A stretch of DNA of 19,594 nucleotides from Planctomycetota bacterium (GTDB taxonomy: Bacteria; Planctomycetota; Planctomycetia; Pirellulales; Pirellulaceae), in assembly GCA_024277285.1 (NCBI GenBank), contig JAJRVM010000120.1, forward strand, positions 1 through 19,594. The letters run 5' to 3'. The translations under genes and the position numbers were made by a program. Positions 1-18,943 of this stretch are shown one piece after another (position 1 is the first letter of the stretch; each line of letters begins with the position of its first letter). The notes under the pieces were generated by a model. It worked only from the letters and a program-made list of their open reading frames with translations, was not told where the DNA came from and made no database searches.

Positions 1-513
1 ACCCTCACCGGCAGACAAGAATCCCTTTTGGTAGCCGAATGCAACCGCTGCGGCGGTCGGTTCGTTAATGATGTCGAGCACTTCAAAGCCAGCGATGTAA
101 CCGGCGTCTTGAGTCGCTTTGCGCCGCACTTCGTCAAAATAGGCCGGCACTGTAATTACCACCTTGTGGTAGTCGCCGATCTGCTGGCGCGTATCAAGTC
201 GAATCTTGTTGAGAATCCATGCTTCGATCGCTTCGGGAGGATACTGTCGCCCTCCCAGCGACTTGTGGAACATCCGCTTGCCCACATCGCGTTTGGCACA
301 TTCGGCAACGCGCTCCGCCTCGACACTCATCGCCTTGACCGCCTCTTTGCCGACGATGACCTCGCCGTCTTCCAGCAAGACGACACTGGGGGTCAGATGA
401 TCCCCTTCCGAATTGATCAGAGTTTGCGGACGGCCGTTATTGTCCAGACGGGCAGCAACCGAGTAGGTTGTGCCCAAGTCAATCCCGATAGCCGGATATG
501 GACGCTGTGTCAT
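1..513 (-). CDS. Hsp70/DnaK-family chaperone, N-terminal part (cut by window edge)
   Basis: The first 171 residues of an Hsp70-type ATPase; the gene continues beyond base 1. Seen in the translation: the phosphate-1 loop IDLGTTYS at residues 11-18, the TVPAYF block at 121-126, and INEPTAAA at 149-156, all hallmarks of the Hsp70 actin-like ATPase domain. Hsp70 proteins use ATP binding and hydrolysis to bind and release unfolded polypeptides in the cytoplasm. The start is the ATG at 513-511, which places the IDLGTT motif at the usual distance from the N-terminus; a GTG six codons upstream is in frame but less likely. Canonical DnaK has IDLGTTNS, and the TYS here suggests a paralogue rather than the housekeeping copy, although the missing C-terminal half prevents a decision. 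It could also be an Hsp70 fused to other domains, as happens in planctomycetes. Confidence 0.93.
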   Translation of the reverse strand, partial: MTQRPYPAIGIDLGTTYSVAARLDNNGRPQTLINSEGDHLTPSVVLLEDGEVIVGKEAVKAMSVEAERVAECAKRDVGKRMFHKSLGGRQYPPEAIEAWILNKIRLDTRQQIGDYHKVVITVPAYFDEVRRKATQDAGYIAGFEVLDIINEPTAAAVAFGYQKGFLSAGEG

Positions 514-1912
514 GGATGTGTAGGATCCCACTCGCTGTGGCTGACTGGAACAAGAATGTGACGCAATCTCAGCAATCCCTCTACTTTACCAAGCCCCCAC
601 GAAACCGACAACGATCACCGTTTGGCAATCCAAGTTCTCCCACCGCACTGGTGGTCGGCCGCAGTTAACTGACTAAATCGGTCGCCGGCGCTGATTCACA
701 TCGCATGAGTTCAAACTGTTTTCGCGCGGGGAGCAGCCCCAGCCAGTTCCATACAATCGTTACAAACCGCCCAACAACAATAAACGAGGCAGACTACACC
801 TCATGCCAGCTTCATTCAAGATAGAAAGACTTTGTCAATTGCGTAGCGGACACCTGCCAAAGCAAAACGGCTGAATTGGGGACGTCCCGCCTGTCGATCA
901 TAATTCGACGAGTGGGGGCACGACACCGCCTCTGTCGGCAACCTGCCATGCCTCGATAGTCACAGCCAGCAGCTCGTCCTTACGCCACACTCGGGACCGC
1001 GCTGCACAAACTACTGCCAGCCGGGGACAACTCCTTGGGCACAACTTGATTCCAACCCTGGAGTCCACTGGCTGAGCTTCGCGCCGTAACGGTGCATTGT
1101 CTCCCCCACACGATTTCCCCAACACGAGAAGACCGAGGTCTGCCAGATGGACACTGACTTGATCCACCTTACGATGGCGTTCACATTCCTGGGCGTTTGG
1201 GCGCTCATCGGCCAAATCACGGTTCAGCGCCGTCGCTCCTGAACGCCGCCGACGCGCATCCAGCGAGAGTCCTGAGGTTTGTTCTTTCGGTTCTGTATCT
1301 TGAGCGGAGAGCCCCAGCGGCGTTAGCTTGCCTGGCTGTTCTCGGAAGCAACCCGTTCTGAATCGGGCGCGATTCAGGGTACCGACACGAAACGCCGCCG
1401 GGACGAAGACGTATCTGTTTGAACGTCATTCGCATTACGCAACACGGTCGAACTTGGGAAACCGACTCGTCCCCCGGCATCCCGTTCAGGCCATCCCATT
1501 CAGATACGCCAGGAAAACGACGACCGCTGCCTGGCGCGCTGTCGGCTGGAATAGTGCCTTCCAAGCATACGCTCACTGCTCGGGGCAACCCCTTCGGCCT
1601 ACCACGGTCGAGCCTCATGCATGGCTACGCCTACACGAACAGGCAACCACACCTTACAATGGAAGCGGTACGAGTTGTCGGTCTCGATTGCCGTTTCGCG
1701 GAACTGGAGTCGTCAAAGCAACACGACGGCAGGTCGTCGATCGGCGGTTCGTAATGCGTGCCTGGGAATCTGGTCACGGAGAATGGCCAGGACCGGGAAG
1801 GCTCTCTTTTCTTGCCGGCACCGACTCGCGTCAAGAAATATTTTTCTCGTCAAGCACAAGAACGCTTGCGCCCGCTACGACGGGGCATCATTCGCTTCAA
1901 GTGAGGAACATC
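514..1912. other. 1.4-kb gap without a supported gene
   Basis: No recognisable gene lies between the Hsp70 start and the universal stress protein start. A minus-strand frame is open without stops from about 1425 to 898, but it has no ATG or GTG (only a TTG at 1215), shows no motif I know and is rich in Arg and Cys. An upstream in-frame extension of the stress-protein gene to 1328 also looks non-coding. The stretch holds short G/C palindromes such as GGGACGTCCC near 879-888 but no long tandem repeat. It probably contains the promoters of both flanking genes. Confidence 0.6.
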
Positions 1913-2341
1913 ATGGGCTGGACAAACGTGGATACGGTCGTCGTTCCGGTCGATTTCTCCGACGAATCATTCGCGGCTGTCGACACCGCACTGAGAATCA
2001 CGAACACTCCCAAGGCATTGCGCATCTTGCACGTGCTACCAGAGCTTTCCCCGTTAGAACCTGGCGAGGTGTGGGAGACGATCACCGAACAATCACGATC
2101 CGATCACGCCAAGAAGGCGTTACACGAGCGTCTGTCGGGATCGACGTATGCTGGCATCACGATCGAGATTCTGTTCGGTGATCCCGGTCACGTCGTAGCG
2201 CGCCGCGCGAAGGAGATCAACGCCGACTTGATCATCTTGCCATCACACGGCCGCACCGGCCTGGCACATCTACTTATCGGTTCGGTTGCCGAACGGGTGG
2301 TACGTCTTGCGCATTGCCCGGTCCTGGTATTGCGCAAATGA
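1913..2341 (+). CDS. Universal stress protein (UspA family), 142 aa
   Basis: A single Usp domain of normal length. Seen: the N-terminal strand VVVPVDFSDES with the nucleotide-contacting Asp at residue 14, the acidic middle region, and the C-terminal ATP-binding signature PSHGRTGLAHLLIGS at 110-124, followed by the closing strand CPVLVLRK. The classic motif is G-2x-G-9x-G(S/T); here the first Gly is Pro while the second Gly and GS are kept, so ATP binding is plausible but not certain. The start is the ATG at 1913, preceded by GTGAGGA at good ribosome-binding distance. The frame stays open upstream to 1328, but that part has no Usp homology and an unnatural composition. Usp proteins are cytoplasmic and support survival of starvation or stress; no specific partner is shown. 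The gene converges on the kinase gene with only 22 bases between stop codons. Confidence 0.93.
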   Translation: MGWTNVDTVVVPVDFSDESFAAVDTALRITNTPKALRILHVLPELSPLEPGEVWETITEQSRSDHAKKALHERLSGSTYAGITIEILFGDPGHVVARRAKEINADLIILPSHGRTGLAHLLIGSVAERVVRLAHCPVLVLRK

Positions 2342-2363: not shown

Positions 2364-5300
2364 TCACTCAAGATCGGGCAAGTTCGACCAACCAACGTTA
2401 TTTCGCGTATGCAACCGTGATGCCGCCTCGGCGAAATCTCGTCGTCCGTCGATGATCGTGACGGCGGCTTGTGTCAGCGAGATTTGTTCGGCTTCGTAGC
2501 AGAGAATAAAGTCACCGTCACAGTTCTCGACGACCGAAGGCGTTTCTTTCAGATCACCGTGCAAGATCTCGATCGGCCGCACTTGTGACGAGCCTTTGGG
2601 CAGCATGACCAGGAGTCGTTTCGCGCCACCGCAAGCCAGCAGTCGCGGCTTAGCCGCGGCGGCACATTCGCGCAGTGTATCGATTTCACGTTCGGGCGAA
2701 TCTTCGTCGTGAAACAGCACGTCGGACACATCCAACTGCTTCATCATTCCCACGACCATCGTTCGAGCAACGTCACGGATCGTCGTCGCCAGTCGATTGC
2801 GTTCGTTGCCGCCCTGCATCAACATGTTGCGTAAGCCGCCGGCGTCGGTCACTACCTCGTCACCCAACTTCTGTTCGAGTTGGCGGGCGAGCCGCTCGAC
2901 GTTATCAACTAAAGCATTGCCGATAGACTCTGCAAGCTCGGCACTTCCTGGGCCAGGGCCGATTGCCAGTGAATCGAGCGTTCGCGTCGTATCGAACTCG
3001 CTCGACAGGTGGCGGAGTTCACGCTCCAAATCCATCAACTCATCTTCGGTCGAAGCCACTTTCCCTTTAATGACTCGGACAATACTTGCAGCACTTGCCA
3101 CAACGCGTTCGTACAATCGCAAACGGCAGAACTGCTCCAACGTGGCAACGACATTGGTCAAAGCCTCACGTTCCTTGCCACGACTGCGCGGGGCCAAGGC
3201 TGCGTCGAGCTGCTGTTGCGTGAGGGTGAGTTCACGATCAATCCGGGTCTGCAGTTCGCCCACTCGGTGATCGATGGTCTGGCAGTGCGCCGCAAGCCAC
3301 TTCGCAGCCCACTGAGCGCCACGGATACGGTCAGCGTCGTCTTCGACTTTATCGATCAGCCAATCGCGAATCGTCTGGGCGCGTTCGGACGCCATTTCTC
3401 GTCGTCGTGTTGCCAGAACCGTCTCCAACGACCCATGATCGCAACAGCCCGATTCGACCGGGTCTTGCCGCGCACCGAGCAATTGATCCATGCACTGTAT
3501 GACGTCAGCGATACACGCCGATGAGTCTTCTTGCGAGTCCGGCATTCGGCCGTTGGTCAGTTGCTGCAACTGCTCCTCAATAAACTCGTTCGCTGGCCGG
3601 CCGATTTCGTCCTCCATCATTTGCGACACTTCTCGAACCAGGCTATCGACATCCAACTGCAACGACTCGGCAAGTCGTTCGAGGGGCACGCGCAGGTGCA
3701 CATACGCTGGTTCCTGAGTGCGGTCCGCATGCTGGCTGATCGTAACACTGGTCCGCTTCAGTGCCGGCAGCTCGCGCTCAACCGCTGTCCCGACGACCCA
3801 GCGTTCGATCGCATGCTGACAAAGGTGTTCAACGGCAATCGAGACAACATCGTCCTGCATACAGCTGTACTGATGCAGGCCGAACGAACGGACTGTGATT
3901 TCGGCGTTGCGCGTATCGGCATGCCGAGGTTCCTTGTCGCGGCACGCTCGGAAAAACTGGCTCGCGGCAGTCGCCGCATCAAGGTACAGGTATTCGGCAA
4001 CCTTGTCGGCCGCATCATCAAACTGGGACTCGCTCAACCCTTCACCCAGGTCAATCAGATAGGTATCTCGAAAAGCGAGATTATCCTCTTTCCGTGCGGG
4101 CAAGTGGCATGCCCGCTCGCCCGGGTAATTGCTCCCCAGCCGGCCATAGTGATTCAACTCGGCCAACGTCGCGTAGGTGTTGACAACGGCCAATTCCGAG
4201 GTGCTTGGATTGCGTCCGGTCGAGTGCGTGAGCACACCGCAAACGTTGTCGTCGGGAAACCCCATTTGGCCCAGCAGGTGACGAACCAGGTAACCCAGAT
4301 CAACGACCATGCCACTGCCGGTTCCACCGGCAATCGATGAGATCACAACGACACGCATGCGCCCGGAACAAACTTCCGCGCCGGCGGCCTCTTTGGACTG
4401 AGCCAAGGATTCCTCCGACGTCGCCGCTTCGATCGCCGTGCGGATACGTTCGGATATCGCCAGGGAATGATCTACGAAGGCGAGTCGTCCCAACGGCCGC
4501 AGGCCCTCCGTTTTCAACGAACGCGGGATGTTATAGAGCCATCGCCGACTGAGCCACTTCAGCAGTTCGCGCGAGTCGGATCGATATTCCTGGGGCCGTC
4601 GCAGGGGCACTCCCAGCAGCTCATGTGCCTTGAATCCACCATGCTGATGTGACATCGCCAACAGATCCTTGCCGTCGGTGTCGACCAGCAACATTTGCAG
4701 TGCGGGAACGGCATCGATGGATTCAAAGCGATCGGCCAGCCGTTTTCGCAACCGTAACATGATCCGACCGGCGGAGCGGCCAATTCCAAGGTAGAGAGTC
4801 GGTTCGATCGATATCTGCTGCTGTTCGATCTGTATCGGGTCAAGCTCGCGCACGACCGGTGCTGCATGAATACGAGGAATCGGAGTCGCGTCCGATTCGC
4901 CATACCATTGCCGAGCACCTGGCACGTCATCCAACACCTCCGTATGCCGCCGTGCTTCGCCCCCGTCACGTGCCGTAACATCGAAACCTGGCGACTGCAC
5001 GCTTCCACGGGCCGACTCCTCCGCAGCTGCTCGTTGCAGTGCATCGACCAGTTCCCGGCAGCTATCGAAACGGTCCTTGGGGGTCTTGGATAAGGCTCGA
5101 GCGATCACTGCCTGATCACGTTCGGGCAATGCCGATAATCGCGGCCGCGCGTTGAGGTGTTGGCGTGCCAGTTGAATGGCAGTCGTACCGGGAAACGGAA
5201 GTTCGCCCGTCAACATCTCCTGATAGACAATCGCCAGACTGTATTGATCACTCCATCGCGACGGCCGCCCGTCAAACACTTCGGGCGGTGCGTATAGCGG

Positions 5301-5828
5301 CGTCAATCCACCCATCATCGATGCGGTCGCATCGTGAATATCCTTGACCAAGCCGAAATCGGCAACTTTGACACGATTGGCCAACAGCAAGATATTCTCG
5401 GGCTTGACATCCAAGTGCTGCAGCGAGTGCTCTTCACTCATATAGTCGAGCACATCGGCCGCATCGCGCATATAGCGGATCAGTTCTTCCCACGGGATGG
5501 CGGGGAGCCCTTCTTTCTGGCACTCGTCAAACCGCTCCTTCAAACAGGCGTCCGCTAATTCCGTAACGATAAGCAACTGGCCGTCAACGACTTCAATACG
5601 TTCCAACGACAACAGGAACGGGTGCCGCACCGCCTTGATTCGATTGAGTGCTTTCAGCTCGCGCGAGGCTCGATCTTCGGACAAGAACCCGTAGACAAAC
5701 TTGATGGCCTTGAACAGGCCACCCGGCACCTCCGCACGCCAAACCTCGCCGTATCCACCGGCGCCGATGCGCTCGCAGATCCGGTAACCGGGAATCGGTT
5801 CGGTCGCAGTTATCGCTTGCAGGGGCAC
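2364..5828 (-). CDS. Ser/Thr protein kinase fused to a tubulin/FtsZ-like domain, 1154 aa
   Basis: The N-terminal third is a Hanks-type protein kinase: glycine loop GAGGYG at 22-27, catalytic Lys43 in AIK, helix-C Glu57, catalytic loop HLDVKPEN at 138-145, DFG at 157-159 and APPE at 180-183. The usual HRD is HLD, so this is a non-RD kinase whose activity is probably not switched by activation-loop phosphorylation. After a linker (about 270-340) comes a tubulin-like domain (resembling Pfam Tubulin_2): a GIGRSAGRIM nucleotide loop at 348-357, LLVDTDGKDLL near 380-390, and AGGTGSG at 500-506, equivalent to the tubulin/FtsZ GTP-binding signature. The C-terminal 400 residues are helical and charged, with likely coiled coils near 870-960. 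No transmembrane segment is evident. The start is a GTG at 5828: an in-frame TAG lies just upstream and the first internal Met is residue 120, too late. It lies 35 bp downstream of the FHA-EAL gene, probably in one operon. Targets are unknown. Confidence 0.9.
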   Translation of the reverse strand: MPLQAITATEPIPGYRICERIGAGGYGEVWRAEVPGGLFKAIKFVYGFLSEDRASRELKALNRIKAVRHPFLLSLERIEVVDGQLLIVTELADACLKERFDECQKEGLPAIPWEELIRYMRDAADVLDYMSEEHSLQHLDVKPENILLLANRVKVADFGLVKDIHDATASMMGGLTPLYAPPEVFDGRPSRWSDQYSLAIVYQEMLTGELPFPGTTAIQLARQHLNARPRLSALPERDQAVIARALSKTPKDRFDSCRELVDALQRAAAEESARGSVQSPGFDVTARDGGEARRHTEVLDDVPGARQWYGESDATPIPRIHAAPVVRELDPIQIEQQQISIEPTLYLGIGRSAGRIMLRLRKRLADRFESIDAVPALQMLLVDTDGKDLLAMSHQHGGFKAHELLGVPLRRPQEYRSDSRELLKWLSRRWLYNIPRSLKTEGLRPLGRLAFVDHSLAISERIRTAIEAATSEESLAQSKEAAGAEVCSGRMRVVVISSIAGGTGSGMVVDLGYLVRHLLGQMGFPDDNVCGVLTHSTGRNPSTSELAVVNTYATLAELNHYGRLGSNYPGERACHLPARKEDNLAFRDTYLIDLGEGLSESQFDDAADKVAEYLYLDAATAASQFFRACRDKEPRHADTRNAEITVRSFGLHQYSCMQDDVVSIAVEHLCQHAIERWVVGTAVERELPALKRTSVTISQHADRTQEPAYVHLRVPLERLAESLQLDVDSLVREVSQMMEDEIGRPANEFIEEQLQQLTNGRMPDSQEDSSACIADVIQCMDQLLGARQDPVESGCCDHGSLETVLATRRREMASERAQTIRDWLIDKVEDDADRIRGAQWAAKWLAAHCQTIDHRVGELQTRIDRELTLTQQQLDAALAPRSRGKEREALTNVVATLEQFCRLRLYERVVASAASIVRVIKGKVASTEDELMDLERELRHLSSEFDTTRTLDSLAIGPGPGSAELAESIGNALVDNVERLARQLEQKLGDEVVTDAGGLRNMLMQGGNERNRLATTIRDVARTMVVGMMKQLDVSDVLFHDEDSPEREIDTLRECAAAAKPRLLACGGAKRLLVMLPKGSSQVRPIEILHGDLKETPSVVENCDGDFILCYEAEQISLTQAAVTIIDGRRDFAEAASRLHTRNNVGWSNLPDLE

Positions 5829-5863
5829 AGCTGTTGTCTACCTCGTGAAGGAGCCGCTTGTGG

Positions 5864-7021
5864 TCAAATGCCGAGTGGGGCAGCGCTAAGGTTCGAGTTG
5901 ATAAACGTGGTGATCGGCTGTGGTCCGCCAAAATAGTCGCCCTGGCCATATTGGCATCCCAGCTCCACAAGGCATTGCATATCGGCACCATCGTCAATGC
6001 CTGCGGCGATCGCAGCACAGCCCAGTTCATTAACGGCCTGAACCAGCGCTTGCACCGTCCGCCATCCGCCACTGGCTCGGTTGATCCCCTTGACGAGCGA
6101 AGGGGAAAGTTTCAAGAAGTCCGGTGCCACCGATTTCCAGCTGGTGATCTGCGTGGGACTCCCGCAAAAGTTGGCATACGCGATCTTGATCCCTCGATCA
6201 CGCAATCCTTGAATAAACTGTCTGAAGTAAGGAATATCACAAACGGCGGTCTCCGGAATCTGCGCCACCAGCTGATGCCGGTGGTCCACGATCTCGGACA
6301 GTCGATCGAGCGAGTCGGGCAGGAATTCGGCGCTAATTTCCGATACCTGTAGTCCTAGGAACAAATGAGCACTGTCGTCCAATTGTGCAGCTTGCTCCAC
6401 GGAAAAGAGCCGATGTTGCTGGTTGATCCGTTCCGTGAGGCGACATTCCGTCCCCTCCACAATCGACTCGGCCTGGCGACTATGCCCCGGCAAGTCATCA
6501 AACTCCCGAATCGCCTCGTAGCCGAACGCTTCGCCGCTATCGAGTTGCACAACGGGCTGGAAACGGGCATTGATGGAGCGGTGCGTCAACGCCTCGTGCA
6601 ATCGCCGGACTTGGATAATCAGATCATTGCCATCCGTCAAACCACTGCTGACCGGCTGGGTCATCACTTGCGTTGCGGAGGCTCGTGTAACCGCCTGGCC
6701 CGAGAAGAAGGTCAATTCAAAGTCGGCAATGACAATAACATCGCCAGCGGACAGGTCAACTTCGCCGATACGTTTCCCGTTCACGTAGGTACCGTTTGTG
6801 CTGTCCAAGTCGCGCAACACATAACCTGCACCCTTCCGATCCAACATCACGTGCCGTCGTGATACGCGACTCGAATCGACTGTAAAATCGGCCGACTCAT
6901 CCCGTCCAATCACGAAAGGAAACGCCGCTAATTCGAGTTTGATCGGACGGCTTCCACCAACCTGGTAGTACTCAACCCAGGGAACACTCGCGTTCGGATC
7001 ATTCATGATTTGAGTACGCAT
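5864..7021 (-). CDS. FHA domain plus degenerate EAL domain protein, 385 aa
   Basis: The N-terminal FHA domain spans about 25-108 with the phosphothreonine-binding set intact: GR at 39-40, SRRH at 54-57, and DSTNGTYVNG at 73-82. FHA domains bind phosphothreonine peptides, so the product of the adjacent kinase gene is a natural candidate partner (inference from neighbourhood). From about 145 to 375 the fold is an EAL-type phosphodiesterase domain, but the catalytic set is eroded: EAL is EAI (169-171), the metal-binding DDFG region is ANFCG (283-287), KLD is KLSP (304-307), and the EGVE segment is AAGID (339-343). The closing QGDYFGGPQP (359-368) confirms the family. Cleavage of c-di-GMP is therefore unlikely; nucleotide binding or protein interaction is possible. 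The ATG at 7021 is chosen, with AAGGA about 12 bases upstream; a second ATG five codons in is an alternative. Confidence 0.9.
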   Translation of the reverse strand: MRTQIMNDPNASVPWVEYYQVGGSRPIKLELAAFPFVIGRDESADFTVDSSRVSRRHVMLDRKGAGYVLRDLDSTNGTYVNGKRIGEVDLSAGDVIVIADFELTFFSGQAVTRASATQVMTQPVSSGLTDGNDLIIQVRRLHEALTHRSINARFQPVVQLDSGEAFGYEAIREFDDLPGHSRQAESIVEGTECRLTERINQQHRLFSVEQAAQLDDSAHLFLGLQVSEISAEFLPDSLDRLSEIVDHRHQLVAQIPETAVCDIPYFRQFIQGLRDRGIKIAYANFCGSPTQITSWKSVAPDFLKLSPSLVKGINRASGGWRTVQALVQAVNELGCAAIAAGIDDGADMQCLVELGCQYGQGDYFGGPQPITTFINSNLSAAPLGI

Positions 7022-7070
7022 CGTCGGTAGCCGTCCTTATTTCTGCCAAGAAATCAATGTGCGGGGATCG

Positions 7071-7120
7071 CCCGTCCAAATTGGTTCGCTGTAGAAAACA
7101 TAGCATCTAACCCGTCCAAA
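7071..7120. promoter_or_regulatory. Two exact 10-bp direct repeats 40 bp apart in the divergent promoter region
   Basis: CCCGTCCAAA occurs at 7071-7080 and again at 7111-7120, exactly 40 bp apart, in the 414-bp gap between the divergent FHA-EAL and receiver-GGDEF genes. The spacing is close to four helical turns, so a protein could bind both sites on the same face of the DNA. The repeats lie 50-100 bp upstream of the FHA-EAL start, where an operator or activator site would be expected. No clear -35/-10 pair could be assigned in this gap, although an AT-rich GATATATAG lies near 7335. The role is inferred only from position. Confidence 0.35.
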
Positions 7121-7435
7121 AAGGGTAGAAACGTGATCTCATCCTTCGCGAATGCGAAAACAGGCGCAATGATGACGCTTTGCCGCTTGCGGACCGGTCG
7201 ATGATGCCAAAACGCATCATCCGCGTGCCGCTTACAAAGATGGTGATTCGTTCCGGAAGTGATAGATGTCTCCCGCAGTCGAAAATGAACGGAACTTCAG
7301 CGTCAAGTTGGAAAAACGACGCCACTAGACGCGGATATATAGTAGAGTTCATCAGGCATCGATTCGCGCAAGATAGGGCGCATTCTTGATAACGCGTGAC
7401 TGGGCAGCCTGTTGGCACATCGATCCTGAACATTC

Positions 7436-8857
7436 ATGATGAAAGCGGCACCAAAAAAGATGAGTTCCCGACCGTTTCGATTGCTGATTGTAGCGGATGA
7501 CCGAAAAATCCTGCGACGACTCTCTCGTTTCCTGAGGGTCTTCGGATTCCTGGTCGATCCCGTCGCCAACGGACAGCAGGCCATCGCTGTCTATGAATCG
7601 CAACCGCCCGACTTCCTGATTGTTGATGGCGATAGCCTGGCAATGGAGCATTGCCGCCAGCTCTTCTCCAAGAACCGCAATGGCTATACCTATACATTTC
7701 TGATGGTCCGCGACGCCAAAGCCGAGGGACTGACTGACGCTCTGGTGGCCGGTGTCGATGACTTCCTTGCCAAACCACTCGTTTACGGTGAGCTGCTTGC
7801 GCGTTTGCGATCGGGTGCGCGCGTGCTGGAATACGAACGGCGGATGCGCGAGCAGTCGGCGATCGACAGCACGACTGCGCTGCTGAGCAAGTCGGCTTTC
7901 CAGTCACGACTCAAGAGTGAACTGGCGATTGCCGGCGATGCATCTCTTTCGTGCGTCATGATCGACCTCGACTTCTTCGGCAATGTGAATCGCTCGCACG
8001 GTCAAGTGACCGGTGACGAAGTGTTGCGAACGGTTGCGACCCAGATCAAGGCGATGACGGACGAATGCAAGTACCTGTCCAGTTTTGGTAGCGGGCGGTT
8101 CGCCGCCTTGCTGCCCGATTCTTCCGATGCCAAGGCATTCGCCTGGGCTGAAACCGTGCGCGAAGCGATCGCCGAACTCGAAGTCCACTTGCCGAACCAA
8201 ACCGTATCGGTAACCGCCAGCCTCGGTATCGCCAGCACAATGCACGGAAGCACGGATGCTGACGAATTGTTGCAACTTGCGGAAAACGCGGTGCGCATGG
8301 CAAAATCCTCCGGCCGTAACTGCGTCGCTCGCTGTGGCCAATTCGATGGCGAAACGCGTGAATGGGAAGATCTTGCCCGCCAAGGCCGTCTGTTTGAAAC
8401 CACGGTGGCACGCGATGTGATGATCCCCTGCCCCGCGTTTGTGCAGTCCGACCACGACTTGAAACACGCTGCGGCGTTGATTGAACAGTCACACCTGGAA
8501 GAATTGCCGGTAGTCGACCGCCAAGGCAGACTCCTTGGCTTGCTCTGCAAGAACCGCTTGCCAGATGACCTGGCCCAAAGCAGTCGCTGGCGTGCCAAAG
8601 TTGGTGACCTGATGGATACCGACATGAAAATGGTGCCTGAGAGTGAGGGCTTCAACGCACTCATGGAATTCTTCATGGACGACGCCAACTCGAAACATGT
8701 CGTCGTCGTTGTCCGCCACGAAAAGCCGCTCGGCATCGTCTACCGCAGTGGTTTGGCCGCCTTGAGCGAACCGCTCACCGTTTCGAGCTTCGCACCCGAT
8801 CAACCGTTTGCCGCAACGAGTGACTATCTGGTCGTTCGGGAAACCTGGTCGAATTAG
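7436..8857 (+). CDS. Response-regulator receiver, degenerate GGDEF and CBS-like domains, 473 aa
   Basis: Three regions. (1) A receiver domain at about 14-128 with acidic pair D21/D22, probable phosphoacceptor D64 in LIVDGD and conserved Lys113 in AKPL; the usual Thr/Ser position is less clear. (2) A GGDEF-type domain at about 140-300: DLDFFGNVNRSHGQVTGDEV at 177-196 and SLGIA at 262-266 match diguanylate cyclases, but the signature is GSGRF at 218-222. The catalytic acidic residue is lost, so c-di-GMP synthesis is unlikely. (3) A C-terminal segment at about 322-445 resembling paired CBS domains (VARDVMIPCP, then LEELPVVDRQGRLLGLL, then VGDLMDTDMKMVPESEGF), which could bind adenine nucleotides. 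The start is the ATG at 7436; ATGs at 7439 and 7460 are possible and none has a strong ribosome-binding site. The gene is divergent from the FHA-EAL/kinase pair. The sensor kinase that would phosphorylate it is not in the window. Confidence 0.88.
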   Translation: MMKAAPKKMSSRPFRLLIVADDRKILRRLSRFLRVFGFLVDPVANGQQAIAVYESQPPDFLIVDGDSLAMEHCRQLFSKNRNGYTYTFLMVRDAKAEGLTDALVAGVDDFLAKPLVYGELLARLRSGARVLEYERRMREQSAIDSTTALLSKSAFQSRLKSELAIAGDASLSCVMIDLDFFGNVNRSHGQVTGDEVLRTVATQIKAMTDECKYLSSFGSGRFAALLPDSSDAKAFAWAETVREAIAELEVHLPNQTVSVTASLGIASTMHGSTDADELLQLAENAVRMAKSSGRNCVARCGQFDGETREWEDLARQGRLFETTVARDVMIPCPAFVQSDHDLKHAAALIEQSHLEELPVVDRQGRLLGLLCKNRLPDDLAQSSRWRAKVGDLMDTDMKMVPESEGFNALMEFFMDDANSKHVVVVVRHEKPLGIVYRSGLAALSEPLTVSSFAPDQPFAATSDYLVVRETWSN

Positions 8858-9846: not shown

Positions 9847-11265
9847 TTAGGCATCGGACTCATAGACTTCCGTGGCACCATGTTGGTCGGGCAAATTGTC
9901 GCCAGAAGCACGATTGCCCCGTGGCCCGACGGGCATATCATCCATGCCCGAGAGCGCAGTGAAATAACTGCGCACCACACGATCAAAGTACTCGTCCGTC
10001 ATTTCCATTGGCAGATCGTTATAGACGCAATAGTTGCGGATCTGCAGCAGAAGATCACGTGGGTGGCATCGACGTAGTGGGCGATTCAGTGGCTCGAAAT
10101 GACGCTGCAGCAGCGTGTCCACCACTTCGCGCCGATAATCGCACTTGAACGACTTGGCGAACATCTCGAACAGGTGATGAAACTCCGCGTGACTTGGGTC
10201 CGTGACTTCGATCTTGTAGGGAATCCGCCGCAAGAACGCTTCATCGGTCAAGTCGGACGGATCAAGGTTTGTCGAAAATATGATCAGTTGCTCGAAGGGG
10301 ACTTGGATCTTTTTTCCTGTGGAGATCGTCAGAAAGTCCTGCCGATTCTCGAGCGGCACGATCCATCGGTTCAACAGGTCCGCTGGTTCAATCCGCTGGC
10401 GGCCAAAATCGTCGATCAGCAGACACCCGCAATTGCTCTTGAGTTGCAGCGGTGCTTCACTCACATTACTGGCCGGATCGTGCCGAATCTCCAACGCGTC
10501 CATGGTCAACTCACCACCGACGACCACCGTGGGGCGACGAATTTTGACCCATCGCTGATCGTGACCCGTTTCTTTAAGCAACCGGTTCTCGTCGGATTGT
10601 TCTGCCTTATGGTATGCCGCGTCGTACAGCTTGATCAACTGACCATCTTCCACCAGCGTTCGTGGGATCCATATATTCTGCCCAAAGCAGCTGGTGATGC
10701 GCGCGGCCAACGTCGTCTTGCCATTGCCCGGCGCCCCGTACAGGAACAACCCCGCCCCGGAATTTATGGCTGGCCCAAGTAGATCGAATAGTTCGGCTTC
10801 GACCGAGATATCTTCAAAGGCCTTGACCAGATCATGCCGTTTCGGCGCCTCGGCACGAATCGTCTGGGCATCGACCGAAACAATGTAATCGATTAGCGGC
10901 ACGGGTGCCGGCCCGACATAGGAACATGTCTCCATCAGCTTCGCGGTTCGCTGGCGACCTTGTTCGGTCAAGACATAGTTGTAGTCGTTCATCTGGGCTG
11001 CCGACGAGTGCACCATAATCTGACGCTGGCGAAGCCCGTGGAACACCGACTCGAGCGTCCGAAACGGCAAACAAATTCGCTCGGCAATCTGCCGTCCGCT
11101 CGCCGCCCCAACGACCTGGACGTACCGACACGTCAGTTCTTCGATCAAGGAGACGGAAAGACCCGTTTCTTCGATCGAGTTCGGTTCGGCAGGCAAGAAC
11201 GTGTCTTCGGCGAAGATCGCCGCCAGCAAACTACCTGAAGCTGTTGAACTCGTTAGCGTGCTCAT
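9847..11265 (-). CDS. AAA+ ATPase with N-terminal winged-helix-like region, 472 aa
   Basis: A cytoplasmic P-loop ATPase. Seen: Walker A GAPGNGKTT at 177-185, Walker B CLLIDDFG at 281-288, sensor-1-like FSTNLDP at 330-336, and LRRIPYK at 345-351 where an arginine finger is expected. The first 120 residues look like a DNA-binding-type winged helix (LIEELTCRYVQVVG, then GRQIAERICLPFRTLESVF, then YVLTEQGR). The C-terminal part, with RPLRRCHPRDLLLQIRNYC near 410, resembles an AAA lid. It resembles uncharacterised planctomycete AAA proteins; I cannot assign a substrate. The ATG at 11265 is the natural start; the ribosome-binding site is weak. The closest upstream gene on the same strand is the 168-residue unknown gene 364 bp away, so co-transcription is uncertain. 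An inverted-repeat element follows its stop. Confidence 0.88.
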   Translation of the reverse strand: MSTLTSSTASGSLLAAIFAEDTFLPAEPNSIEETGLSVSLIEELTCRYVQVVGAASGRQIAERICLPFRTLESVFHGLRQRQIMVHSSAAQMNDYNYVLTEQGRQRTAKLMETCSYVGPAPVPLIDYIVSVDAQTIRAEAPKRHDLVKAFEDISVEAELFDLLGPAINSGAGLFLYGAPGNGKTTLAARITSCFGQNIWIPRTLVEDGQLIKLYDAAYHKAEQSDENRLLKETGHDQRWVKIRRPTVVVGGELTMDALEIRHDPASNVSEAPLQLKSNCGCLLIDDFGRQRIEPADLLNRWIVPLENRQDFLTISTGKKIQVPFEQLIIFSTNLDPSDLTDEAFLRRIPYKIEVTDPSHAEFHHLFEMFAKSFKCDYRREVVDTLLQRHFEPLNRPLRRCHPRDLLLQIRNYCVYNDLPMEMTDEYFDRVVRSYFTALSGMDDMPVGPRGNRASGDNLPDQHGATEVYESDA

Positions 11266-11594
11266 TGTTTGACTCTTACCGTTCTCTCATTGGCTGACAT
11301 TGTTCGTATCACCTGCCAAGACCTTGACAGTCGCGTCCGCCGCCACTTGCTCATCAGCAAAAGTGTACGTTATTACAGCGTCTGCAAACGGAGATGCACA
11401 GCAAACCTGTCACGCGCAACGCGCCGGTTGTGCGAACGCACCGCACTCGCATCAACTCATACAACCTTTACTACCCCACCGCGCAGCGGCAGCGCCAAGT
11501 GTGGTTCGTCGCAGGGCGCTCGAAGGAACCGCCCCATTGCGATCGTGTGCCGATGGTAAGCACGGTCGCGCCGGTTCAGGAAATGCAAGACATC
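11266..11594. other. Gap between the ATPase and the 168-residue gene
   Basis: About 330 bases with no convincing coding frame on either strand. It should contain the promoter of the ATPase gene (minus strand), though no clear -35/-10 pair was found. A 15-bp tandem repeat closes the gap at its right side. Confidence 0.5.
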
Positions 11595-11639
11595 GGAAGT
11601 CAACGGCGCGGAAGTCAACGGCGCGGAAGTCAACGGTCC
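11595..11639. repeat. 15-bp tandem repeat, three copies
   Basis: Three consecutive 15-bp units of GGAAGTCAACGGCGC occupy 11595-11609, 11610-11624 and 11625-11639; the last ends TCC instead of CGC at its final bases. The third unit overlaps the 3' end of the 168-residue gene and supplies its stop codon (TGA, minus strand, 11632-11630); the other two lie downstream of it. Each unit carries the same in-frame TGA on the minus strand, so changes in copy number would not lengthen that protein. Confidence 0.9.
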
Positions 11640-13602: not shown

Positions 13603-14010
13603 CAGACATTGCTTCGCGCTCGTATTCTCCACGTGCCGCAAACGCGATCGCGATCCTTTGCCGAATGCCGCGACGGTGTGAAACAGACGCCAAACCTGCT
13701 GCACAACCCAACGGCAAGTGCACTATCTTGGGCTACTTCGCTTCGCCTACAATTCGCCCAATCTCCCCACCTCGCCTACTCGGCGTGAACCTTCTTGACG
13801 CGGTCCAAGGGAGTTCGGTTTTGGCAAAATTGTCAGCAGAATCGGAAGAATCAACCTCTTCCAAACACCGATAACAACTAGGAGGTTGTCATCCTCGACA
13901 GCTGATCCAACGTGATCGCACTCGCTCGAGATTCGACCCTATAACTCCGCAATTTGGAGCGTCCACGGGTCGCGACACAGACTACGGGACGGGACAAGGC
14001 AGTTAGTACC
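13603..14010. other. Intergenic region upstream of the BBP7 porin
   Basis: About 400 bases with no supported gene. Short inverted repeats occur, such as ACAAC / GTTGT flanking TAGGAG near 13875-13890. A strong AGGAGG at 13879-13884 is not followed by a usable start with a reasonable frame. The porin promoter is presumably here but was not located. Confidence 0.5.
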
Positions 14011-15438
14011 ATGAAAAAAGCGAGTGATTCGAGCGAAGCCGGGAGCAGAGCTTCACAACAGATATCTCCGCGCACGACACTCACTCGGACTTGGAGCTGC
14101 TTCTCGCTCGGCCGCACAACCCTGCAATGGGCCACTTTGGCCACCCTTCTCGCGGCCACCCTTCTGGCGCTGATGCCCGGCATCCTGCACGCCCAACAAG
14201 CTACCTTGACGCACGAGACACCCGAATTGGTGGACACCACGGGCGAGCAATGGCTCGAGCCCATCGCCGAACAGGGTCGCAGGCGTAGGCGTAGTCACAT
14301 GCCGGGAAACTACGGCGTGATGAGCGATTGGGATCTCTATGCGGGAAGTGTCTACGCCAATACGAGCCCGCTTTGGATCCACACCGAAGCACTGCTGTGG
14401 TGGATGCGTGGCAACAAACTCCCTGCCCTCGTGACCACCAGCTCGGCAGGAACACCCCGTAGCGAAGCGGGTGTCCTGGGTGCCGCCAACACCAGCGTCT
14501 TGCTCGGGGACGAGCGCATCGATGACCGCGCCCGTGGCGGCTTTCGTACCGCAGCTGGCGTGCGGCTGGGCCACTGGTTCGATCATCTGATGGATGCGGA
14601 ATTGCAATTCGATCTACTCTGGGTCGGCGATGGCCAATCGGGCGGCGATTTCCAGGGAATCTCGGTTGGAGATCCCATCCTGGCACGCCCATTTTACGAT
14701 GCCGCGTTAAATGCTCAGGACGCTCAGCTGGTCGCCTTTCCCAATGTCGTTTGGGGAGACATCTCCGTCCAGACATCAAGCGACTTCCTCTCGGCAGGCG
14801 CTTTGTACCACAAAGGCTGGCGATGCTATGACAATGCGCGTATCGATTGGCTCGCTGGCTATCGCTACGCCCAACTGCGCGACGAATTGCTGATCGAAGA
14901 ACGGCTCGTGTCGGTCGATCCGGGTGGCGCTGTAGCCGTCGGGACGACGTTCGACCTGTTCGACGACTTCCGAACGTGGAACGAGTTCCACGGCGCGGAC
15001 CTAGGCCTGCAACTCTGGACGCACATGCACGGCTGGACCATCGAAGTTATCGGCAAGGTCGCCCTTGGCAAGACCCTTCGCACTCTGGAAGTGAACGGCG
15101 AGACCTTCACGCTCTCGCCAGCGGGAGGCGCGTCAGTAGCACCGGGTGGATTGCTGGCAATGCCGACCAATATGGGACGACATCAATCGAACCAGTTTGC
15201 GGCACTCCCCGAGCTGACCATACGCTTGCGCCGACCGATCTCTCGATTCTTCACTTTCACCGCCGGCTACACCGCGATGGCACTCAGTGGCGTCGTACGC
15301 ACAGGTGACCAGATCGATCTGGCCGTCAACCCGACCCAGTTTGGCAACGGTACACTGATCGGAGCACCCTACCCAGCAGTGCGAATGGACGATTCCACCG
15401 TCTGGCTCCAAGGCGTTTCCGTCGGCCTGGAATGGTGA
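14011..15438 (+). CDS. BBP7-family outer-membrane beta-barrel protein, 475 aa
   Basis: It matches the planctomycete BBP7 putative porin family. Seen: a long signal sequence with a hydrophobic core at about 39-57 and probable cleavage near residue 61 (ILHA-QQ), then the family's opening aromatic motif TEALLWWMRGNKLPALVTT at 125-143, a glycine-rich segment with RGGFRTAAGVRLGHWFD, repeated amphipathic strands, and a terminal beta strand ending in a Trp (VSVGLEW), as expected for outer-membrane insertion. The ATG at 14011 is preferred; the frame is open upstream to a TTG at 13954, which would only lengthen the N-region. AAGG lies about 11 bases upstream. Role: probably an outer-membrane channel or structural barrel; the substrate is unknown. 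A 15-bp minisatellite starts 13 bases after the stop. Confidence 0.9.
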   Translation: MKKASDSSEAGSRASQQISPRTTLTRTWSCFSLGRTTLQWATLATLLAATLLALMPGILHAQQATLTHETPELVDTTGEQWLEPIAEQGRRRRRSHMPGNYGVMSDWDLYAGSVYANTSPLWIHTEALLWWMRGNKLPALVTTSSAGTPRSEAGVLGAANTSVLLGDERIDDRARGGFRTAAGVRLGHWFDHLMDAELQFDLLWVGDGQSGGDFQGISVGDPILARPFYDAALNAQDAQLVAFPNVVWGDISVQTSSDFLSAGALYHKGWRCYDNARIDWLAGYRYAQLRDELLIEERLVSVDPGGAVAVGTTFDLFDDFRTWNEFHGADLGLQLWTHMHGWTIEVIGKVALGKTLRTLEVNGETFTLSPAGGASVAPGGLLAMPTNMGRHQSNQFAALPELTIRLRRPISRFFTFTAGYTAMALSGVVRTGDQIDLAVNPTQFGNGTLIGAPYPAVRMDDSTVWLQGVSVGLEW

Positions 15439-15450
15439 TGCGTTCCCCGC

Positions 15451-15520
15451 TCGGCACTGGGACTCTCGGCACTGGGACTCTCGGCACTGGGACTCTCGGC
15501 ACTGGGACTCTCGGCACTGG
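15451..15520. repeat. 15-bp tandem repeat, 4.7 perfect copies
   Basis: The unit TCGGCACTGGGACTC is repeated without a mismatch at 15451, 15466, 15481 and 15496, with a fifth partial unit (10 bases) ending at 15520. It begins 13 bases after the BBP7 stop codon, so it lies in the 3' untranslated region or terminator zone. The absence of mismatches points to recent expansion or active homogenisation, and copy number may vary between strains. Confidence 0.95.
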
Positions 15521-17596: not shown

Positions 17597-17624
17597 GGTA
17601 CGGCGTTACTGGTGCGGCGTTACT
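17597..17624. repeat. 14-bp tandem duplication across the DUF1559 stop
   Basis: GGTACGGCGTTACT (17597-17610) and GGTGCGGCGTTACT (17611-17624) are adjacent and differ at one base. The DUF1559 stop codon (TAA, 17622-17620) falls in the second copy. The duplication probably arose by slippage and does not alter the protein. Confidence 0.75.
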
Positions 17625-18654
17625 GATCGAGGGGCTCGAACCGCTCACCCTTCTGCCGCGTGATCATTGACGCGAACGTGTGTGGATTAACCGACTCGAT
17701 AATGAACCTGACCGATCCATCACACAACAGAAAATGAGCACCCGCAGGATGAAACGAGTAAAAACCGGCTGACCGGAGGTTGGTACAATTGATGGGACAA
17801 GGCCCACCATCCGGCCCAGGCGTACCATCGTAGAACGCTCCTGCCAACCAATGTTCGCCATTGAGAAAATCGGCCCATCCACCACCGTTAAGCATGTTGA
17901 TAGGCCCCAGATCGACTTCGGTGCGCAGGAAATAGATCTTGCTGCCGCCCACACGTTCGCCGATCATGATCGTATTGGATGTGCCGTCTCGAATGGCAGA
18001 CATGGAGCTCTGGCCAACGCCAAACGGTCCCGCCATCGGCTGAATCGCTCCCTGCCGACTGCCCCCGGCGTTGCCACTGTAGGCAATCGTCGCAAAATCG
18101 CCACGCACGCCGGTCGAGATGCAATAGTCGGACTTCGCTGCACGCCAGGTGAGCGTCAAGGGTGGAATCCCGCCGCCGCCCGCACCCGCCGGCAACATAC
18201 CGTCATACAATCCCTGATCATCCGAAGGGGCTGAGGGACAAATAAACATTTCCAACGGCGTCTTCGCCAACTCCAGATTCATTGCCACGGCGTTGGCGGG
18301 AAATCCCAGCGCGACCGCCTCGTTGAAAGCGGGTACCGAGTCGCTCCACTTGTCCGAGATGGTTGTTTCTTCCATGTAGGGCAGGATGCGTGTGCCCCAC
18401 GTCTGCACATTCAGATTGTTCAAATCGATCATATACGCAAATGGAAACGCATTGGCCACATCGTGATAGTTGTGCATGGCCAAACCGAGCTGCTTCGTAT
18501 TGTTACTGCAACTCATGCGACGTGCCGCCTCACGCGCTGCTTGCACAGCGGGCAAGAGCAAAGCCACCAAGATCCCAATAATGGCTATCACAACGAGCAA
18601 CTCGACCAACGTAAATCCGCGTGCATGAACACGCCTGCGCGCTTCACTTACCAT
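17620..18654 (-). CDS. DUF1559 prepilin-like protein, 344 aa
   Basis: The N-terminus is a type II secretion/type IV pilin leader: a short basic stretch, then G13-FTLVE with conserved Glu18 and a long hydrophobic helix (LLVVIAIIGILVALLLPAV), followed by QAAREAARRMSCSNNTKQL, the DUF1559 signature. Peptidase cleavage and N-methylation would occur after Gly13. The C-terminus carries the H-x9-DG motif (His302, Asp312-Gly313), also family-typical, and length is normal. The product is expected to be anchored by its N-terminal helix facing the periplasm; planctomycetes carry tens of such paralogues of unknown role. The ATG at 18654 is well supported: GAGGAAGAG lies upstream at ribosome-binding distance. 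It is the first gene of a probable two-gene unit with the small lipoprotein. Confidence 0.95.
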   Translation of the reverse strand: MVSEARRRVHARGFTLVELLVVIAIIGILVALLLPAVQAAREAARRMSCSNNTKQLGLAMHNYHDVANAFPFAYMIDLNNLNVQTWGTRILPYMEETTISDKWSDSVPAFNEAVALGFPANAVAMNLELAKTPLEMFICPSAPSDDQGLYDGMLPAGAGGGGIPPLTLTWRAAKSDYCISTGVRGDFATIAYSGNAGGSRQGAIQPMAGPFGVGQSSMSAIRDGTSNTIMIGERVGGSKIYFLRTEVDLGPINMLNGGGWADFLNGEHWLAGAFYDGTPGPDGGPCPINCTNLRSAGFYSFHPAGAHFLLCDGSVRFIIESVNPHTFASMITRQKGERFEPLDQ

Positions 18655-18726: not shown

Positions 18727-18943
18727 TAGTTGTTTGTTAAGAATAACGCTTGCGAAAACACTAGCCAACGCAACCTCACACCAACGCATGCCGCTAAACA
18801 GAGCATGCAATGGTGGAGCGTGGCTACGAACCAAGTTGTTATCCACAACGTTGTTATCCACAACGCTGTTATCCACAACGCTGTTATCCACAACGTGATC
18901 TTGCGGAACCGGCTCCAGCAAGCTCACTTCTTACAAACAACTA
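18727..18943. repeat. 217-bp segment bounded by imperfect inverted repeats and enclosing the DnaA-box array
   Basis: The left end, TAGTTGTTTGTTAAG (18727-18741), is repeated inverted at the right end, CTTACAAACAACTA (18930-18943), with a single one-base gap. The similarity continues inward to GCTTGC (18748-18753) against GCAAGC (18918-18923), giving imperfect inverted repeats of about 26-27 bases. A TA at each outer edge could be an IS630/Tc1-type target duplication, which would make this a MITE-like element, but no transposase is present and the TA could be chance. It lies upstream of the DUF1559 gene. Confidence 0.5.
18836..18895. repeat. Array of four exact DnaA boxes at 15-bp spacing
   Basis: TTATCCACA, the consensus DnaA box, occurs at 18839-18847, 18854-18862, 18869-18877 and 18884-18892, all in the same orientation and exactly 15 bp apart. 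The repeat unit is GTTGTTATCCACAAC or GCTGTTATCCACAAC; in the first form GTTGT and ACAAC are themselves inverted around TATCC. The boxes are seen directly; whether DnaA binds is inference. No dnaA, dnaN or gidA-type gene is in the window, so origin function is not implied by neighbours. The array could titrate DnaA, regulate the adjacent DUF1559 gene, or be a minisatellite that happens to contain the box. Confidence 0.85.

Follow-up and report, generated by a model that had tools for sequence, protein, structure and literature searches.

A conserved FtsZl1-type gene module of Pirellulales comprising a kinase-tubulin protein, an FHA protein with a degenerate EAL domain, a degenerate GGDEF-CBS protein and an AAA ATPase

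Genes and domains at the locus

We analyzed a group of neighboring genes within 19,594 nt (hereafter, the window) of contig JAJRVM010000120.1, from a Planctomycetota bacterium of the family Pirellulaceae (assembly GCA_024277285.1). KT (2364-5828, minus strand) starts at a GTG codon and encodes 1154 residues comprising, in order, a Ser/Thr kinase, a Tubulin_2 (FtsZl1) domain and a C-terminal region that is helical. FE (5864-7021, minus strand; 385 residues), separated from KT by 35 bp, encodes an FHA domain joined to a degenerate EAL domain, while GC (7436-8857, plus strand; 473 residues) is divergent from FE and encodes a receiver, a degenerate GGDEF domain and two CBS domains. All three are intact genes. 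The initial annotation of the window had described this trio with the same positions, strands, spacing and divergent orientation, and in these respects it was confirmed; its three-gene make-up was nonetheless incomplete, as by sequence comparison the module also includes a gene for an AAA ATPase (9847-11265, minus strand; Walker A motif GAPGNGKTT), which lies beyond the coordinates that it considered. The genomic comparisons presented below give good support to a conserved module of FtsZl1 type, shared by Pirellulales and their kin, that consists of KT, FE, GC and this AAA gene. A promoter scan of positions 6900-7500 gave a result near chance, with a single weak sigma-70-like match in the 414 bp between the starts of FE and GC (7022-7435), and Rfam returned no match at gathering scores in the window.

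Active-site residues were compared in alignments of 27 KT, 29 FE and 31 GC rows, picked from hit lists. The kinase domain of KT (5064-5786, minus strand; residues 15-255) and its Tubulin_2 domain (3807-4796, minus strand; residues 345-674) both exceed their curated Pfam cut-offs (Pkinase, 96 bits; Tubulin_2, 150 bits against a cut-off of 27). The window kinase retains Lys43, Glu57, Asp140, Asn145 and the DFG motif, and the glycine loop, β3 Lys, αC Glu, catalytic Asp, Lys and Asn, and DFG are kept in 27 of 27 relatives; as judged by these residues, the kinase is intact. The Arg of HRD is replaced by Leu (HLD) in all 27, making this a non-RD kinase. By fold it is PknB-like, kinases being among the matches listed for the whole KT model. 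In the Tubulin_2 domain, the glycines of the GGTGSG motif (residues 501-506) are invariant (27/27).

FE likewise scored above the curated Pfam cut-offs for both of its domains (FHA, 72 bits; EAL, 106 bits). The FHA domain (6728-6913, minus strand; residues 37-98) is intact by its core and phosphothreonine-binding residues, which are kept in all 29 aligned proteins; with the kinase residues described above, this supports, at the level of sequence, the suggestion that the locus pairs the writing with the reading of phosphothreonine. The EAL domain (5921-6607, minus strand; residues 139-367) is degenerate: the metal-site Asn is kept in 3 of 29, the second Asp of DDFG in 4, the Asp of KID in none, the Glu of GVE in 4 and the Arg of EALxR in 4, with the first Glu (27/29) and the Lys (26/29) generally retained. 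The window FE has two of the eight EAL active-site residues (E, N, E, D, D, K, D, E) and thus lacks a phosphodiesterase active site.

In GC, three Pfam families scored above the curated cut-offs: GGDEF (99 bits), CBS (50 bits, in two stretches) and Response_reg (40 bits). The pseudo-GGDEF domain (7859-8320, plus strand; residues 142-295) has GSGRF in place of GGDEF and no I-site, and the fourth residue of the motif is Arg in 28 of 31 relatives. With the EAL losses, this bears out the prediction of two degenerate c-di-GMP (cyclic di-GMP) domains. The CBS pair was placed at 8408-8785 (plus strand), with the best stretch, residues 325-370, taken from Pfam and the outer limit of the pair an estimate. 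The receiver (7484-7807, plus strand; residues 17-124) keeps its phospho-acceptor, Asp64. Of the 31 relatives, 30 share this Asp and 23 have the Lys, and most have lost the Thr/Ser position; because the phospho-acceptor is so widely kept, the receiver need not be dead, and the term "receiver-dead" in the initial annotation, if it meant a dead receiver, is unsupported.

Conservation of the gene order

An alignment scan with GC, taking one genome per species, yielded 35 loci, of which 25 (L001-L025) match most of the length of GC. Twenty-four of these are planctomycete by title, and the other, L009, is titled Candidatus Nealsonbacteria; it carries planctomycete-type FE and GC genes, and the contig is probably misbinned. 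KT, FE and GC occur in the order of the window in 19 of the 25, and L005, L011 and L017 are truncated by contig ends. We also sampled 146 genomes of the order to which L002 belongs; in each genome the top-ranked 13 or 11 candidates were scored, at E-values of 1e-30 and 1e-45. Seventy Tubulin_2 genes were present in 65 of these genomes (one of 71 rows was dropped as a second piece of the same gene in genome G002). FE lies within 8 kb of 60 of the 70, as counted from the Tubulin_2 match and not from the gene end, and 10 have neither FE nor GC; the KT-FE pair is found in 55 of the 146 genomes. All 60 loci pairing Tubulin_2 with FE were fetched and checked, with each locus counted once (L122, L123, L128 and L130 are probably L014, L023, L015 and L021, respectively). 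A kinase domain is present in 60 of 60 and GC in 36 of 60, the latter comprising 30 at our first cut-off and six below it, each above 110 bits, that come from the 11 upstream-FE loci without GC at that cut-off. Four genomes (G275, G283, G297 and G367) have a trio and a pair-type locus together. The initial annotation had expected scattered orthologs if the genes formed no system; instead, adjacency is kept in the order sampled, and by sequence the genes are conserved as a set.

Such conservation might arise by inheritance of gene order only, through shared ancestry or shared promoters, among genes that do not work together. Nearly all of the cases are indeed records with planctomycete titles, or genomes drawn around one of them; the trees show clustering, so that few of the adjacencies are effectively independent; and both FE without KT and KT without FE occur. 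Nonetheless, FE and KT remain together across three layouts (FE is co-directional with KT and upstream of it in 41 loci, co-directional and downstream in 11, and divergent in 8), and the trio order is unchanged even in L025, from Bythopirellula polymerisocia, where GC identity has fallen to 24%. Further, four other genes flanking the module in the window are rarely kept: among 65 loci, the universal stress protein gene was found in none, HSP70 in 2, and a leucine-rich-repeat gene and BBP7 in 1 each, compared with 23 for the AAA gene, bearing in mind that the fetched flanks vary in length and the farther genes are a weaker control. We consider inherited order by itself improbable.

The association of the AAA gene with KT is also apparent order-wide, as an AAA gene lies within 8 kb of at least 46 of the 70 Tubulin_2 genes, and all 46 are upstream on the KT strand. 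A high-scoring form of the AAA protein is present in 51 of the 65 genomes with Tubulin_2 and in none of the 81 others; the line was drawn at 545 bits, chosen once the score list had been inspected. The window AAA protein has no Pfam match above cut-off, and no close solved relative was found by sequence. Of 15 additional loci taken from a sampling of the class, 7 have FE, AAA and KT together in the fetched stretch, and 8 have kinase-tubulin genes with neither FE nor AAA there. Among the 7 is L115, where KT is about 4 kb from FE and AAA. L055 has a tubulin gene without a kinase, with AAA upstream and no FE.

Other observations concern these genes individually. Many of the genomes have a second, more distant AAA copy elsewhere. 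Loci L106-L113 represent a different class of the family: their kinase-tubulin genes, which form tandem pairs in L106 and L109, have neither FE nor AAA beside them in the sequence fetched. The C-terminal ATEVYESDA of the window AAA protein was considered as a motif-like site and dropped, as this ending is not shared by the 23 AAA relatives compared. Finally, a fused kinase-tubulin-EAL protein, P0035, was considered as a Rosetta-stone fusion; its sequence runs from the end of an EAL domain through an out-of-frame-looking stretch into a kinase, and we gave it no weight as a probable gene-model artifact.

Some gene sets that contain FtsZ or tubulin homologs have been proposed to be conflict systems (PMC7159879, in the portion available), and an anti-phage role for the module would accord with the PADLOC kinase models that match the KT kinase domain and the IetA models that weakly match AAA. 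These PADLOC matches of KT are mainly within the kinase domain, however, with none for FE or GC, and the full model set of any one PADLOC system is absent. The recurrence of the KT-FE pair in 55 of the 146 genomes of the order also argues against such a role, as does the lack of a close FE relative in the plasmid collection (81 records matched, all below 60% identity). We regard this explanation as very improbable.

The remainder of the window contains the start of an Hsp70-like gene (1-531, minus strand) that runs off the window and was met, among the 65 loci, in L001 and L002 only; the universal stress protein gene (1328-2341, plus strand); a gene for a BBP7 β-barrel porin (13954-15438, plus strand; PF07585, 318 bits); and a gene for a DUF1559 protein with an N-terminal methylation motif (17620-18654, minus strand), the last two being above the Pfam cut-off. 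Perfect or near-perfect 15-bp tandem repeats, whose units differ, occur outside recognized genes at 15450-15520 (4.7 copies), 18835-18896 (4.1 copies) and 11594-11636 (2.9 copies).

Degenerate enzymes at the trio loci and intact relatives elsewhere

We compared (i) the loci that have GC with (ii) those that pair KT with FE alone. In all 36 loci with GC, the EAL domain of FE is dead. In 21 of the 60 loci the EAL domain has eight of eight active-site residues, and GC is in view in none of these, although one of them, L149, is on a short contig from which GC may have been cut off. The remaining three loci have a dead EAL without GC, and in all three FE is at a contig end. Controls that require no alignment gave the same division: DDFG is found in all 21 intact FE proteins and in none of the 39 dead ones, and an EALxR-like motif in all 21 of the former and in one of the latter. 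For GC, GG(D/E)EF is absent from 27 of 27 trio-position proteins in one set and 36 of 36 in the full-locus set (the sets overlap). Thus, as far as active-site motifs reveal it, the EAL and GGDEF domains of the trio layout have lost their active sites, whereas at sister loci the FHA-EAL protein encoded beside KT is intact.

Relatives away from KT are mostly intact. Among 27 rows for FHA-EAL proteins encoded away from KT, 13 were fetched and 13 are intact; among 78 rows for receiver-GGDEF-CBS proteins, 15 of the 18 fetched have GGEEF together with RxxD or RxxE, and the other three have AGDRF. In an FE tree from which the catalytic columns had been removed, 28 of 28 intact-type proteins are on one side of a branch with an SH-aLRT (approximate likelihood-ratio test) support of 100; the FE protein of L007 and the contig-edge FE proteins of L005, L009, L013 and L017 were grouped and handled with the dead-type proteins. 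The GC tree has one clade consisting of 16 of 17 intact proteins and the three with AGDRF. In the KT tree the layouts are more mixed than in the other two. Two arrangements may bear on how the present layout arose. In L019 (9926-16894), the dead GC directly adjoins an intact receiver-GGDEF-CBS paralog and a further intact GGDEF gene, a possible trace of tandem duplication. In L116 (1941-8998), L117 (5351-12442) and L119 (5367-12572), an intact GGDEF gene of another type is clustered with intact FHA-EAL, AAA and KT genes, possibly representing an ancestral operon. We infer that the direction of change was the death of enzymes and not a gain of activity.

The initial annotation proposed that the two degenerate proteins were co-opted as receptors or scaffolds, and of these receptors appear to be the less likely half. 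Degenerate GGDEF and EAL proteins such as LapD and FimX are receptors that bind c-di-GMP without turning it over, and by analogy the pseudo-EAL of FE, the pseudo-GGDEF of GC, or both, might bind the nucleotide and thereby gate the kinase or the polymer. The positions lost from FE, however, contact the ligand in EAL receptors: the EALxR Arg, the GVE Glu, the KID Asp and the metal-site Asn are scarcely kept, as enumerated above. The window GGDEF domain has likewise lost its active site and I-site, and RxxD is kept in 1 of 27 trio-position GC proteins, and in L126, compared with RxxD or RxxE in the 15 intact paralogs. This pattern of residues argues against c-di-GMP binding without deciding the matter, and we think a receptor module unlikely, while still giving it some credence. 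FE resembles LapD and FimX in having a degenerate EAL domain of the same fold; it differs in joining that domain to FHA and in having lost many conserved positions, and here the GGDEF and EAL domains are in separate proteins beside a kinase.

Candidate phosphosites and relation to known systems

Three threonines are candidate phosphosites by inference: Thr117 of FE (ATQVM; 6671-6673, minus strand), in the linker between FHA and EAL; Thr3 of FE (MRTQIM; 7013-7015, minus strand); and Thr296 of KT (TEVL; 4941-4943, minus strand), in the disordered linker between kinase and tubulin domains. All are in segments with a pLDDT (predicted model confidence) below 50, which for KT extends over residues 276-313. 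Leaving out three short or cut FE proteins (L005, L017 and L054), the linker Thr is present in 27 of 27 dead-type FE, with Met, Leu or Ile at +3 in all 27, and in 25 of 28 intact-type FE, where +3 is Asp, Glu or Asn in 20 of 25. FHA domains read the +3 residue, and in parallel with it the residue after the conserved Ser of the FHA domain varies, being Arg in dead-type FE and Gly, Ser, Lys, Asn or Gln in intact-type FE. Linkers that match T[QE]V[FLMI] number 96 among 114 FE proteins (mean after shuffling, 1.3) and 32 among 96 KT proteins (0.6), and 24 of 120 KT tails also match (0.44). These counts are inflated by relatedness of the proteins; the linker counts leave out 6 of 120 FE and 24 of 120 KT, in which the patterns missed the FHA core or the linker.

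These sites recall the FHA protein GarA (Rv1827), a substrate of PknB that is phosphorylated at Thr22 in TTSVF, described as the preferred PknB target (PMC6151718, in the portion available). As in that system, a PknB-like kinase is found with an FHA protein whose flexible segment contains a T-x-V-hydrophobic motif, a likeness that here is one of sequence features. The module differs from PknB-GarA in that its kinase has HLD in place of HRD and forms part of a fusion with a tubulin-like domain, and in that FE carries a pseudo-EAL domain; further, the site conserved in all aligned dead-type FE proteins lies after the FHA domain, and its phosphorylation is a prediction. The same differences apply to OdhI, another FHA phospho-switch like GarA.

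Because the linker Thr of FE, with Met, Leu or Ile at +3, resembles the TTSVF site of GarA, we favor a kinase-FHA phospho-switch on a predicted GTP-binding polymer over a c-di-GMP receptor; such a switch is our best explanation of the module, and could as readily prove wrong as right. In this model, the targets of the KT kinase would be T-x-x-hydrophobic sites: Thr117 and Thr3 of FE and, in certain lineages, Thr296 in the linker of KT itself. The FHA domain of FE would bind this phosphothreonine, either within FE or on KT, and this binding would attach the pseudo-EAL scaffold to the GTP-binding polymer or detach it. GC would supply regulatory input through phosphorylation of its receiver and nucleotides on its CBS domains, and the AAA protein would remodel the complex. 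The trio layout would have its origin in a c-di-GMP unit under kinase control, of which the copies at this locus became pseudoenzymes.

Several observations weigh against the phospho-switch. The pattern T[QE]V[FLMI] is found in 0 of 120 GC proteins. The linker motif of KT is unevenly distributed among the genome loci: 7 of 8 type-B loci have it, compared with 6 of 27 trio-type and 0 of 7 type-C. Of 25 trio-type FE proteins from genome loci, 8 lack the Thr3 pattern at the N terminus, one of these being cut by a contig end. Conservation of the threonines could also reflect something besides phosphorylation. Judging from the trees, the association of a dead EAL with GC represents few evolutionary events and not 57 independent ones. 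Within the sequence available, L009 (4.8 kb) and L013 (1.6 kb) contain FE and GC but no KT, and L018 (2.2 kb) contains GC but neither FE nor KT. AAA is in view in 20 of 21 intact-EAL loci compared with 25 of 39 dead-EAL loci, and is out of view in the other 14, some of which are cut by contig ends. Finally, a fold search with the whole KT model did not reach its tubulin part (the matches listed were all kinases), and a tubulin-only profile run against solved structures gave helical matches only, the best of which was a major capsid protein (E = 0.0012); because neither search gave a tubulin match, the source of the tubulin fold assignment is Pfam.

A more ambitious extension is that a c-di-GMP circuit has here lost its second messenger: a cyclase, an FHA-phosphodiesterase, an AAA protein and a kinase-tubulin would have become a phosphothreonine-and-polymer switch in which the pseudo-cyclase and pseudo-phosphodiesterase are matched scaffolds on a kinase-bearing filament. 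Intact forms of such a set are found in L116, L117 and L119, and we offer this history as a doubtful but specific possibility.

Parts of the module are already in print. The kinase-tubulin fusion of planctomycetes is described in the available portions of PMC2875224 and PMC9871819, the former (Makarova and Koonin 2010) stating that four planctomycete FtsZl1 members have an N-terminal protein kinase. In part of PMC11032199, the tubulin-like domain is the commonest of those exclusive to cytoplasmic kinases, and planctomycetes are reported to lack FtsZ. The Tubulin_2 domain (PF13809) is common to KT and the FtsZl1 systems of PMC2875224, which, as described in the portion available, center on vWA, OmpA-like and GTPase genes, whereas here FHA-EAL and AAA ATPase genes recur order-wide. 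Pfam searches of 11 window proteins revealed no vWA gene, the typical FtsZl1 partner. A 2010 review exchange within that paper mentions that the diguanylate phosphodiesterase Psta_0487 adjoins FtsZl1 in Pirellula staleyi, and the words FHA and EAL do not occur in the main text. The intact FHA-EAL and receiver-GGDEF-CBS paralogs share family and domain order with FE and GC, and differ in having intact catalytic residues and in location: they lie elsewhere than beside KT or, in the case of FHA-EAL, at loci that lack GC.

In our searches of the open-licence literature we found no description of the trio, its link to AAA, the contrast of dead and intact forms or the threonine sites; nothing on FHA-EAL proteins, on c-di-GMP and GGDEF together in Pirellula, or on planctomycete tubulin-like kinases with cyclic di-GMP; and no role for those kinases. 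The suggestion that no characterized system has this make-up accords with these searches as regards the trio, and less so as regards its parts, given the published fusion and the one EAL neighbor. The conserved reader of the module, FE, together with a defined candidate phosphosite, would permit a direct test of what the KT kinase does, and the loci with a dead EAL and GC, set against those with an intact EAL, may serve as a natural experiment on second-messenger enzymes turning into scaffolds.

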